64,000 bases of DNA from Marivirga arenosa (lineage in GTDB: Bacteria; Bacteroidota; Bacteroidia; Cytophagales; Cyclobacteriaceae): assembly GCF_030503895.2 (NCBI RefSeq), contig NZ_CP129970.2, positions 622,001 to 686,000 on the forward strand, read 5' to 3'. The notes under the pieces were generated by a model. The model was not told where the DNA came from and did not search any database. It saw only the letters and a list, made by a program, of their open reading frames with translations. A program made the translations under genes and the position numbers. Each line of letters starts with the position of its first letter. The stretch's first letter is position 1. This document shows, in pieces, positions 39,512-48,683 of the stretch.

Positions 39512-40525
39512 CTAATTAATATTATTTCTTAATTCATAAGTTTGTTTCATTTTATGAATTAAGGCAGAACTTTCTTCAAAATATAAAGATTGTTGTCCAT
39601 CACTCATCGCTTTTTCAGGATCTGGGTGTAGTTCATAAATAACGCCATCCGCTCCTGCCATAATTCCAGCAAGGGCGACTGATTCAACATACTTTCTAAT
39701 CCCAATTCCATGAGAAGGATCTACTACTACTGGCAAATGAGATCTATCTTTCAATACTGGAATTGCATTTATATCCAATGTATTTCTGGTCATGTTTTCG
39801 AATGTCCTAATCCCCCTTTCGCATAAGATCAAATCCTCATTCCCACCACTGAATACATATTCTGCTGAATAAAGTAATTCTTCAATAGTGCCACTTACCC
39901 CTCTTTTAATCATAACTGGTTTATCTACTTTTCCTAATTCATCCAGCAAGTTGAAATTTTGAGTATTTCGTGCCCCTACCTGATAAATATCGATATAGTC
40001 ATACATTTCCTCTACTTGCGAAACTTGCATCACCTCTGTTATGATCTTAATGCCAGCATCTTTGGCTTTCTGATACCACATCTTTAAACCTTCCATACCC
40101 AGACCTCTAAAGGAATAGGGAGAAGATCGAGGCTTATACACTCCTCCACGCATGATTTTGACATTGTTCGCAACTAAGTGAGCGATTACCGCATCTACTT
40201 GCTCTTCATTTTCAATACTACATGGCCCAGCCATCACATTAAAATGGTTTTGTGAAATCACATCTCCATCTCTTAATTGAATCTCAGCAGGATTAACCTT
40301 CCATTTACGAGAAACCAATTGATAATTATCAGAAACAACATGCACGTCTTTTACACCTTTTAGATGACCGATCTCTCGGATATCAATGTCGCTTTTTTCA
40401 AGTGCTACTAAATAAAATCCTTTCTGAGTTTGTACTTCGCTCACCGATTTAGTGAATTGCCCCAATGAAGAAATTAAATCATTCTTAGCATTTCCGCTAA
40501 TATTTTTTTCTAGTTGTAATATCAT
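39512..40525 (-). CDS. aroF: 3-deoxy-7-phosphoheptulonate synthase (DAHP synthase)
   Basis: A 337-residue enzyme for the first step of aromatic amino-acid synthesis. An N-terminal ACT/ferredoxin-like regulatory domain (about 1-75) precedes a type I-beta catalytic barrel: MAGPCSIENEEQ, IMRGGVYKPRSSPYSFRGLG, TEVMQVSQVE, YQVGARNTQNF and VVDPSHGIGIRKYV. This is the Thermotoga/Bacillus-type enzyme. As last gene of the trp cluster it supplies the pathway from the same transcript. It is separated from trpA by 315 bases holding four repeat copies, and its start is preceded by the CTAAAATCT leader motif. Confidence 0.95.
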   Translation of the reverse strand: MILQLEKNISGNAKNDLISSLGQFTKSVSEVQTQKGFYLVALEKSDIDIREIGHLKGVKDVHVVSDNYQLVSRKWKVNPAEIQLRDGDVISQNHFNVMAGPCSIENEEQVDAVIAHLVANNVKIMRGGVYKPRSSPYSFRGLGMEGLKMWYQKAKDAGIKIITEVMQVSQVEEMYDYIDIYQVGARNTQNFNLLDELGKVDKPVMIKRGVSGTIEELLYSAEYVFSGGNEDLILCERGIRTFENMTRNTLDINAIPVLKDRSHLPVVVDPSHGIGIRKYVESVALAGIMAGADGVIYELHPDPEKAMSDGQQSLYFEESSALIHKMKQTYELRNNIN

Positions 40526-46702: not shown

Positions 46703-48106
46703 TTAGTGTTGATTAAATAAATACTCGGCCTTATCCATTGCTTTTCTCAAGGCAAATAACTTATTATGCACTTCTTGTAATTCACTTTCAGGATCGGACA
46801 AAGCCACAATTCCTGCTCCTGCTCTATAATTCAACTTATTCTTCTTACTCACAAAAGATCGAATCACTATGGCATGATTGAGGTTTCCGTTCAATCCAAT
46901 TAAACCTACAGCACCCCCGTACAAACCTCTACCCGTAGGTTCATACTTATTAATTAATTCTAAAGCTTTATACTTTGGAGCACCACTTAAGGTACCTGCT
47001 GGGAAGGTGTCAGCCAATAGTTGTACTGCTGATTTTTCAGGAACATCCGCTGTAACTTTGCTTACTAAATGGATTACATGAGAATAAAATTGAATCTCTT
47101 TATATACTTCCACTTCCACATTTTCACCATTTTTAGAAAGATCATTTCTCCCTAAATCAACCAGCATGGTATGTTCGGCATTTTCCTTTTCATCATTTAG
47201 TAACTGATCCGCTAATTTGGCATCCGCTGCATCATCCCCACTTCTGCGGTAAGTACCGGCTATAGGATTCACATATGCTTTTCCTGACTTCACCCCTACC
47301 TGAGCTTCTGGTGAAGAGCCAAATAGTTTATAATCTCCATAATCGAAATAAAATAAATAAGGCGATGGGTTTAGTGAGCGTAAAGCTCTATACACTGTAA
47401 ATTCATCGCCTTTGAATGATTGAGAAAAAGCACGGGATAGAACAATTTGAAATACATCTCCCAATTGAGCGTGCTCGATTCCTTTATTGATAATGCTAAG
47501 AAATTCATCATCCGTCATATTGCTTTCTTCCTCTCCTACTTTTTTAAACTGAAATTGAGGAACTGAACGATTTAATATGATCTGAACTAAGTCATTCAAT
47601 TTAAAATCATATTCTTTTTTAAGCTGATGTTCAAAAACATGCAATTCATCTTTAAAGTGATCAAAGACTAATACAAAGCGATAAAAATGATAACGAAGAA
47701 ATGGAATATCTTTATCTACCTTTTCAAAGTTGATATCCTCAAAATACTGCACCCCGTCAAAGCCAGTAGCGCCAAAGAAACCACTTTCTTCAAAATCCTC
47801 CTGAGGAAAAATTTCATCTGCTTCAAATTGATTGATGAAAGATTGTAGCTTATCAGGCAGTTCTAATTTACTTTTAAGTTCTTCAGTTTTTGTCTCTCCT
47901 TCAATTTCAGTATAAAAGCTATTTTCATTGGCTTTTACCTCCGCAACGGATTGTACTCCTATATATGAAAAACTGTTTCTTCTGGTATGATAATCAGAAC
48001 TCTCCATCAAAAAGGTATGCGGAAATTGATCTCTCAACCGTAAATAAAGTGCTACCGGAGTAAAGGAGTCTGCCGGTAGGGTGATATGTGATTTCTTTAT
48101 TTTCAT
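46703..48106 (-). CDS. trpE: Anthranilate synthase component I
   Basis: A 467-residue chorismate enzyme. The tryptophan feedback element LMESS is at residues 33-37. The catalytic C-terminal half shows FQIVLSRAFSQSF, SPSPYLFYFDYGDYKLFGSSPEA-like core, PIAGTYRR, DLGRNDLSKN and AGAGIVALSDPESE. It is the first structural gene of the trp-aroF operon, so it is subject both to the two leader attenuators upstream and, by homology, to feedback inhibition. Confidence 0.97.
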   Translation of the reverse strand: MKIKKSHITLPADSFTPVALYLRLRDQFPHTFLMESSDYHTRRNSFSYIGVQSVAEVKANENSFYTEIEGETKTEELKSKLELPDKLQSFINQFEADEIFPQEDFEESGFFGATGFDGVQYFEDINFEKVDKDIPFLRYHFYRFVLVFDHFKDELHVFEHQLKKEYDFKLNDLVQIILNRSVPQFQFKKVGEEESNMTDDEFLSIINKGIEHAQLGDVFQIVLSRAFSQSFKGDEFTVYRALRSLNPSPYLFYFDYGDYKLFGSSPEAQVGVKSGKAYVNPIAGTYRRSGDDAADAKLADQLLNDEKENAEHTMLVDLGRNDLSKNGENVEVEVYKEIQFYSHVIHLVSKVTADVPEKSAVQLLADTFPAGTLSGAPKYKALELINKYEPTGRGLYGGAVGLIGLNGNLNHAIVIRSFVSKKNKLNYRAGAGIVALSDPESELQEVHNKLFALRKAMDKAEYLFNQH

Positions 48107-48178
48107 TTATACTTTATTTTAATTTTATACTAGCTTTCTGTTTATAATTTATGTTCTGGATTCAACCCTTAAAAACAA

Positions 48179-48211
48179 AAAAGGCTTACCGGATGTCCGA
48201 TAAGCCTTTTT
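48179..48211 (-). terminator. trp attenuator 2: terminator hairpin
   Basis: On the minus strand GGCTTA-T-CGGA-CA-TCCG-G-TAAGCC followed by six U. The CATCCGG in its descending arm (48195-48189) can pair instead with CCGGATG (48243-48237) at the end of leader peptide 2, which would open the terminator. Confidence 0.9.
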
Positions 48212-48235
48212 CTCAATTGAGCATAGCAAATCTGT

Positions 48236-48295
48236 TCATCCGGGTTCAGATGTTATTAAGTGCCACCACCATGCTGAATTGAATTTATTAATCAT
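48236..48295 (-). CDS. trp leader peptide 2 (three Trp codons)
   Basis: A 19-residue open frame, MINKFNSAWWWHLITSEPG, with three consecutive TGG codons at 48271-48263. Its last codons and stop (CCC GGA TGA) contain the CCGGATG strand of the possible antiterminator. A ribosome stalled at the Trp codons leaves this strand free; one that reaches the stop covers it. It starts about 20 bases after the U-tract of attenuator 1, so it is made only when that terminator is read through. Confidence 0.85.
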   Translation of the reverse strand: MINKFNSAWWWHLITSEPG

Positions 48296-48314
48296 CTTTT
48301 TTTAATTTTTGGTC

Positions 48315-48342
48315 AAAAAAAAACCTCGCGACAGCGAGGTTT
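48315..48342 (-). terminator. trp attenuator 1: terminator hairpin
   Basis: On the minus strand AAACCTCGC-TGTC-GCGAGGTTT followed by a U-run. GCTGTC within it (48335-48330) is complementary to GACAGC (48368-48363), which lies just after the stop of leader peptide 1. Confidence 0.9.
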
Positions 48343-48370
48343 AAATATTTATATATACCAGTGCTGTCTT

Positions 48371-48421
48371 CTAAATTTTAGAAGTCCACCACCAACTGAT
48401 ATTTGTATTTCTTTTTTGCAT
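48371..48421 (-). CDS. trp leader peptide 1 (three Trp codons)
   Basis: A 16-residue open frame, MQKRNTNISWWWTSKI, with three consecutive TGG codons at 48394-48386. The codons after them lie in a hairpin CTTCTAAA-A-TTTAGAAG (48384-48368). GACAGC, which can pair with the terminator 1 loop side, follows three bases after the stop codon TAG. The ATG is six bases from the end of the -7 element, so the mRNA may begin at or next to the start codon. A GTG at 48430 is a possible alternative start. Confidence 0.85.
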   Translation of the reverse strand: MQKRNTNISWWWTSKI

Positions 48422-48426
48422 TTCCA

Positions 48427-48458
48427 CAAATGTATGTGCGAAACTGATATAAGCAAAA
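48427..48458 (-). promoter_or_regulatory. Promoter of the trp operon
   Basis: On the minus strand TTTTG (48458-48454), 19 bases, then TACATTTG (48434-48427): close to the full Bacteroidota consensus. It abuts the stop codon of the THX gene. Confidence 0.75.
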
Positions 48459-48683
48459 TTATTTGTCAGATTTTTCAGTTTTTTTCTTTGCAGTGGTTTT
48501 TTTAGCGGTTGAAGCTTTCTTAGTTGAGGCTGTTTTTTTTGCTGGCTCTGCTTTCTTTTTAGCTTTTGGCTTTTCCTTAGTTGCAGTTTCCGGACCAGAA
48601 GAAGCGCTTGGTCTTGGTCGGGTATTACCAAATGTTCCTCTCCAAATTTTTCCTTTTTTAGATTTTCTGTCTCCTTTTCCCAT
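48459..48683 (-). CDS. Small ribosomal protein THX with Lys/Ala-rich tail
   Basis: A 74-residue protein. The first 25 residues, MGKGDRKSKKGKIWRGTFGN then TRPRP, match THX (bS31), a small basic protein sitting in the 30S head. Thermus THX is about 26 residues long; here a further 48 residues rich in Lys, Ala and Thr follow (PAKKTASTKKAST-like repeats), resembling histone-like tails and typical of Bacteroidota versions. It lies directly upstream of the trp promoter on the same strand, without a terminator between. Confidence 0.85.
   Translation of the reverse strand: MGKGDRKSKKGKIWRGTFGNTRPRPSASSGPETATKEKPKAKKKAEPAKKTASTKKASTAKKTTAKKKTEKSDK

Follow-up and report, generated by a model that had tools for sequence, protein, structure and literature searches.

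The trp attenuator of E. coli (Rfam family RF00513) comprises a leader reading frame with a run of tryptophan codons, hairpins designated 1:2, 2:3 and 3:4, and a strand 2 situated at the leader stop codon; translation of its leader peptide starts from a ribosome-binding site, and the operon is additionally repressed by TrpR. In Gram-positive bacteria, trp genes can be preceded by tandem T-box leaders, which sense uncharged tRNA-Trp twice in series but bind the tRNA directly, without a leader peptide or ribosome. The trpL gene of Sinorhizobium meliloti is a single attenuator, reported to have a transcript that starts at the leader ATG (PMC7298713), and its RNA and peptide act in trans as well. 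The mgtCBR leader of Salmonella, as outlined in PMC3641672, has two serial leader reading frames controlling one operon, which respond to two signals (ATP and proline) and have no hairpins resembling intrinsic terminators. Among the Bacteroidota, which PMC9723704 treats as organisms without Shine-Dalgarno sequences, the same account reports strong signs of leader-peptide attenuation ahead of amino-acid operons in F. psychrophilum, and a leader RNA with tryptophan codons, Bacteroid-trp (RF01692), was presented by Weinberg et al. 2010 (PMC2864571) and is catalogued as a single element.

Whereas E. coli possesses only one such unit, Marivirga arenosa possesses two. The minus strand of the window (the whole stretch of 64,000 nucleotides that was analysed) carries, in this order, a TAnnTTTG promoter, leader 1, terminator 1 (T1), leader 2, terminator 2 (T2) and trpE (Table 1). 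Very probably these form two complete transcription attenuators of the ribosome-mediated kind, acting one after the other on a single trp transcript. In contrast to the two signals of mgtCBR, the Marivirga leader would sense one amino acid twice, each time with an intrinsic terminator. A preliminary description, which placed two units between the trp promoter and trpE, each with a leader peptide containing three consecutive tryptophans and its own terminator, agrees with the coordinates as read directly. A single Trp attenuator is the normal arrangement in Bacteroidota, and RF01692 already catalogues one kind of it, so that the tandem arrangement alone is the unusual and new part. No description of tandem ribosome-mediated trp attenuators was found among the matches listed (titles and abstract openings) from the open-access literature, outside which most subscription papers lie. 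The words "tryptophan" and "Bacteroid-" are absent from the available text of PMC2965389, and "tandem" and "in series" are absent from that of PMC1183508, in which the sensitivity of ribosome-mediated attenuation is treated theoretically.

Table 1. Features of the trp leader region of Marivirga arenosa, in window coordinates
Feature	Position	Strand	Details
Promoter	48427..48457	-	-33 box TTTG 48457-48454; -7 box TACATTTG 48434-48427
Leader peptide 1, MQKRNTNISWWWTSKI	48371..48421	-	Trp codons 48394-48386; predicted 5' UTR of about 1 nt
Unit 1 hairpin 1:2	48355..48402	-	AUAUCAGU 48402-48395 with ACUGGUAU 48362-48355; predicted by minimum-energy fold
Unit 1 strand 2, GACAGC	48363..48368	-	plus GGU 48359-48357; pairs with terminator 5' arm and loop
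Unit 1 strand 3, GCUGUC	48330..48335	-	within terminator 1
Terminator 1 (T1)	48321..48342	-	9-bp stem, loop of 4, U tract; from sequence and fold
Leader peptide 2, MINKFNSAWWWHLITSEPG	48236..48295	-	Trp codons 48271-48263
Unit 2 hairpin 1:2	48213..48282	-	region near GCAUGG (first Trp codon) with CUAUGC; predicted by minimum-energy folds
Unit 2 strand 2, CCGGAUG	48237..48243	-	overlaps stop codon
Unit 2 strand 3, CAUCCGG	48189..48195	-	terminator 2 loop and start of 3' arm; pairing runs into 5' arm
Terminator 2 (T2)	48177..48212	-	16-bp stem, loop of 4, U tract; from sequence and fold
trpE	46703..48106	-	ATG at 48106; first gene of trpEGDCFBA (to 40841)

The operon genes trpE, trpG, trpD, trpC, trpF, trpB and trpA were assigned by their best NCBIfam matches; trpG, trpD, trpC, trpB and trpA scored above an NCBIfam curated cut-off, and trpE and trpF fell short of those set for their best-matching models. 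A DAHP synthase gene (window 39512-40525, minus strand) is located 3' of trpA and is followed by a terminator-like hairpin (39485-39459). On the other side, a small basic, lysine-rich frame (48461-48682, minus strand) ends just 5' of the trp promoter; it gave no match in NCBIfam and Pfam searches, and presumably resembles ribosomal protein bTHX. In some relatives (G361, G386 and G311), the trp leader lies directly 3' of the end of a lysine-rich frame, without a promoter box.

Each unit separately matches the Bacteroid-trp model from its first to its last position, with scores of 40.2 and 34.9 bits, which like those of all 11 related loci fall short of the gathering score of 49; unit 1 also matches the Trp_leader model RF00513 at 35.4 bits, below its gathering score of 41. 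Judging from these matches, both units would work like Bacteroid-trp RNAs while not being strict Rfam members.

The predicted structures are more stable than chance would produce. Unit 1 (109 nt) folds 4.4 standard deviations below its dinucleotide shuffles and unit 2 (120 nt) folds 6.0 below, with none of 200 shuffles equalling either one; the entire 319-nt leader has a z score of -4.9, equalled by none of 100 shuffles, and among 60 shuffles of the strand-2 region none paired equally well with the terminator of either window unit. The motif TGGTGGTGG occurs at 79 places in the genome, compared with 64 for the reversed pattern, and being so common, a Trp run is little proof on its own. Conservation of the Trp runs together with the terminators in Marivirga, however, rules out a chance Trp run. 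Both leaders with three Trp codons and both terminators are present in all nine Marivirga genomes in which trpE was found (eight species, including that of the window), as would be expected from the preliminary description, which had proposed a comparison of the leader in related genomes; the tenth genome searched (G007, 86% complete) yielded paralogues only. The closest named genomes by trpE identity are those of M. sericea (89%), M. aurantiaca (78%) and M. atlantica (74%). The identical arrangement in nine genomes rules out an artefact of a single assembly, and the identity of 0.55-0.63 between unit 1 and unit 2 within a genome (four genomes compared) rules out a recent duplication in Marivirga.

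As had been noted beforehand, each terminator has a base-pairing alternative, formed by GACAGC and GCTGTC in unit 1 and by CCGGATG and CATCCGG in unit 2; both pairings extend beyond these previously reported stretches, the extended duplexes having energies of -13.2 and -19.2 kcal/mol, respectively. The cross pairs between units have energies of only -5.0 and -4.4, and the two window units are insulated, good pairing of a strand 2 being limited to the terminator of the same unit. The 2:3 pairing was evaluated across 190 units from 171 regions (14 of the 185 surveyed regions, without a unit, were left out), with the segment between the Trp codons and the terminator taken as strand 2, and with the 5' arm, loop and first four bases of the 3' arm of the terminator taken as strand 3. 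The mean energy of the units' own pairs was -16.0 kcal/mol, lower than in all 2000 re-dealings of the partners (mean -10.5, standard deviation 0.21, lowest -11.2), and the result was unchanged without the non-trp locus G556 (189 units). In 188 of the 190 units the own pairing was lower in energy than the median for shuffles of that unit, and in 106 it beat all 60 shuffles. No permutation out of 5000 gave as low an energy for tandem unit 1 alone (n = 21) or for tandem unit 2 alone (n = 19).

Within Marivirga, covariation is confined to unit 1, for which 80 of 5000 permutations among the eight species were as low, and in which double changes preserve the pairing as GACAGC/GCUGUC, GCAGU/ACUGC and AGGCGG/CCGCCU. 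Unit 2 is without covariation support within Marivirga alone (646 of 5000 permutations as low) because its strand 3 is almost invariant there. Automatic alignment misplaces the terminator in the two most diverged species. A few units pair little better than their shuffles: 42% of shuffles were as low for unit 1 of G083, 17% for both units of G163, and 15% for unit 1 of G088 and unit 2 of G002. Cross-pairing approaches or exceeds the own pairing of unit 1 in five of 19 tandem genomes (G163, G088, G268, G083 and the Marivirga genome G003, the last with -10.0 for cross-pairing and -10.7 for own pairing). The 1:2 hairpin is predicted for both units by minimum-energy folding; its own pairs have only a slight advantage over mismatched ones (median rank 0.23), and the motif C[TC]ATG[CT] is found at a constant distance in unit 2 of all eight Marivirga species. 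Elsewhere in the survey, locus L231 (genome G084) has a leader with separated Trp codons (VWHWYF) and a similar GAACAGCG/GCTGTTC pairing, which escapes filters that require two adjacent tryptophans (WW).

Strand 2 had been placed at or just past the leader stop codon and beyond the Trp codons, and this is where it lies: it starts at the third base past the stop codon in unit 1 and overlaps the stop codon in unit 2. A ribosome is stated in PMC3641672 to cover 12-15 nt from its P site, and in both units the start of strand 2 falls within the stretch so covered by a ribosome at the stop codon; classical ribosome-mediated attenuation therefore fits each unit. The antiterminator states that the preliminary description had put forward for checking were modelled by folding transcripts with ribosomes at defined positions. 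When the ribosome occupied the Trp codons and the transcript ended inside the terminator, both units were predicted to fold as 2:3; when the ribosome had reached the stop codon, 2:3 was impossible and the terminator formed, preceded by a small hairpin in unit 2; with no ribosome, the fold was 1:2 plus terminator. Once the whole terminator had been transcribed, however, it gave the lowest energy even when the ribosome was stalled, and so antitermination must be kinetic: according to these models, the decision must fall during transcription of the terminator. With frames, Trp runs, terminators and pairings conserved, and with pairing that co-varies between species (only in unit 1 within Marivirga), two tandem ribosome-mediated trp attenuators, as proposed from the start, are the best reading of the locus.

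The two leaders differ in how their translation is likely to begin. The TAnnTTTG box of F. psychrophilum spans positions -12 to -5 according to PMC9723704, and the same spacing applied to the window predicts a start at 48422, one nucleotide before the ATG of leader 1, near what is reported for trpL of S. meliloti. Of the 21 tandem unit-1 leaders, 19 have an exact TAnnTTTG 4-10 nt ahead of a leader ATG. Among 170 promoter-proximal trp leaders, 126 match the consensus at five or more of its six bases in a box located 2-12 nt ahead of an in-frame ATG (at 7-8 nt in 76 of them), and the remaining 44 are without such a box; counted at 4-10 nt ahead of the leader, a box with five or six matches is present in 121 of 170 regions. 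When the upstream 60 nt were shuffled, such a box appeared in 33 of 171 regions (one non-trp locus included). Leaderless mRNAs are rare in the species mapped, being 5.5% of mRNAs in F. psychrophilum (PMC9723704), and about 3.7% of 5' UTRs are reported to be under 10 nt in B. thetaiotaomicron (PMC7366714), although most of the Bacteroidota trp leaders considered here appear, from their upstream sequences, to favour near-leaderless starts.

A box with at least five matches precedes 20 of 21 tandem unit-1 leaders, in contrast to four of 19 unit-2 leaders (none of them with all six bases), which is no more than the chance level given by the shuffles. Leader 2 of the window is preceded by an A-rich stretch, and would have to be initiated internally. 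Unit 1 might instead be a stand-alone gene for a small RNA or peptide ending at T1, as in rnTrpL/peTrpL of S. meliloti, with unit 2 serving as the trpE attenuator from a promoter of its own. In favour of this, the predicted 5' end of leader 1 is nearly leaderless, and termination at T1 would free an RNA of about 100 nt, comparable to the leaderless rnTrpL presented in PMC7298713; such an arrangement is nevertheless extremely unlikely, the promoter-like box before leader 2 being at chance level. A role in trans for unit 1 on top of attenuation could exist.

A wider survey covered 185 regions upstream of trpE, 109 from genomes that included the best trpE matches of the family and 76 from a named collection. 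The rest of the 109 were spread across genus groups (not all 84), and five were targeted tandem candidates, two of which were not trp loci; since the regions were chosen, the ratio of tandem to single leaders is not a frequency. Frames with WW numbered one in 150 regions, two in 28 (some distal frames being spurious) and none in seven, and as real leaders, for instance that of G084 with WHWY, escaped the filter, the counts of regions with zero leaders are upper bounds. Two leaders, each with a terminator, were present in 21 regions, 18 identified by script and three by reading (G279, G020 and G253): nine in Marivirga, seven in genus-level group g37, two in g80, one each in g12 and g75, and one in Maribellus maritimus. 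The tandem thus occurs in four genus-level groups of the family besides Marivirga, plus one Maribellus. The Maribellus maritimus locus (L131) came from outside the search of the window's family, and the run of its first leader is WLPWW.

Independently of leader detection, two TGGTGGTGG runs 100-160 nt apart are present in 89 of 390 family genomes, and in at least 15 of these the pair precedes trpE (the nine Marivirga genomes, G233, G268, G253, G020, G163 and G088); tandems with wider or imperfect pairs (G115, G220, G279, G261 and G083) were found by other means. A phylum-wide scan of 395 genomes, 75 of which had a match, gave no further convincing tandem by eye. In both scans, most of the other matches were judged by eye to be glycine-rich or other coding sequence. 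The candidate tandem of G556 was rejected as not a trp locus, neither G225 nor G556 having a TrpE-like frame downstream by reading; G556 (L201) was counted as one single unit in some pairing and promoter counts and excluded in others, with the same result. Loci L059-L062, from the same genomes as L013, L014, L016 and L017, were removed, and L043, too near a contig end, was replaced by L202.

Single units prevail among the relatives examined: of the 170 trp regions in which a unit was detected, 149 have just one (outside the listed tandem loci, only the leader closest to trpE was retained for this count). Within g37, 13 of the 15 species in the sample were compared, and seven have the tandem; the other six carry a single leader that resembles unit 1 (mean identity 0.73-0.76) more than unit 2 (0.62-0.66), which indicates that unit 2 can be lost. 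The unit 2s of the g37 tandem subgroups are 0.73 identical to each other, compared with 0.65 and 0.70 to unit 1 of the other subgroup, and the pattern weakly favours loss of unit 2 in g37; across groups, unit 2 is not consistently nearer to other unit 2s. For the identity comparison only, unit 2 of G279 and of G253, absent from the 190 units, were added by hand. A trpE tree with 57 rows requires at least six changes of the tandem state, of which well-supported branches force only one, and the tandem rows G020 and G083 are long branches of unsure placement; eight of the 126 TrpE frames lacked the expected motif and were left out (one from the family, G134), and G361, a fragment, was kept.

The prevalence of single units and the dispensability of unit 2 in g37 are what would be seen if only one unit worked, the other being a copy in decay or a terminator that acts constitutively and does no more than lower expression. 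This is very unlikely for Marivirga, because all nine genomes retain the frames, Trp runs, terminators and 2:3 pairings of both units at trpE identities down to 74%, and because both window units beat every shuffle.

With two working attenuators, a shortage of charged tRNA-Trp would stall the ribosome at the three Trp codons and break hairpin 1:2, whereupon strand 2 would pair with strand 3 of the nascent terminator and RNA polymerase would read on; a ribosome that reached the stop codon would cover strand 2 and let the terminator form. Leader 1 would be translated from a nearly leaderless 5' end, and leader 2 by a new ribosome, starting internally once T1 had been passed and having to arrive in time to keep in synchrony with transcription. 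As expression of trpE would require read-through at both units, the probabilities, if independent, would multiply and the relative sensitivities to tryptophan (the gain as defined in PMC1183508) would add, giving lower basal expression and a steeper response. The multiplicative or step-like control suggested in the preliminary description is in this sense a reasoned prediction.

The two units may instead be tuned to different conditions, such as leaderless as opposed to internal initiation or different tryptophan thresholds, so as to integrate two signals rather than multiply one. Their 5' contexts do differ, as does the distance separating the last Trp codon from the end of the stop codon (medians of 15 nt for unit 1 and 27 nt for unit 2 among tandem loci), and mgtCBR, as described in PMC3641672, offers a leader with tandem attenuators for two signals. 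Such tuning is nevertheless rather unlikely, given that the run of three tryptophans is the same in both units and nothing points to a second signal. It is conceivable, though doubtful, that attenuating trp operons in series is a design that recurs within this branch of the Bacteroidota, with leaderless ribosome loading reading the first switch and internal initiation the second, so that tryptophan is measured twice with a near-digital response and the state of leaderless translation is sensed too.

Two attenuators of one amino acid should make the on/off response of the Marivirga trp operon sharper and tighter than a single switch would. This natural trp leader with two attenuators in series, together with its one-unit relatives, provides a comparison for what a second attenuator contributes to basal level, gain and signal integration, and the near-leaderless starts predicted for trp leaders bear on how ribosome and polymerase may be synchronized in organisms without Shine-Dalgarno sequences.
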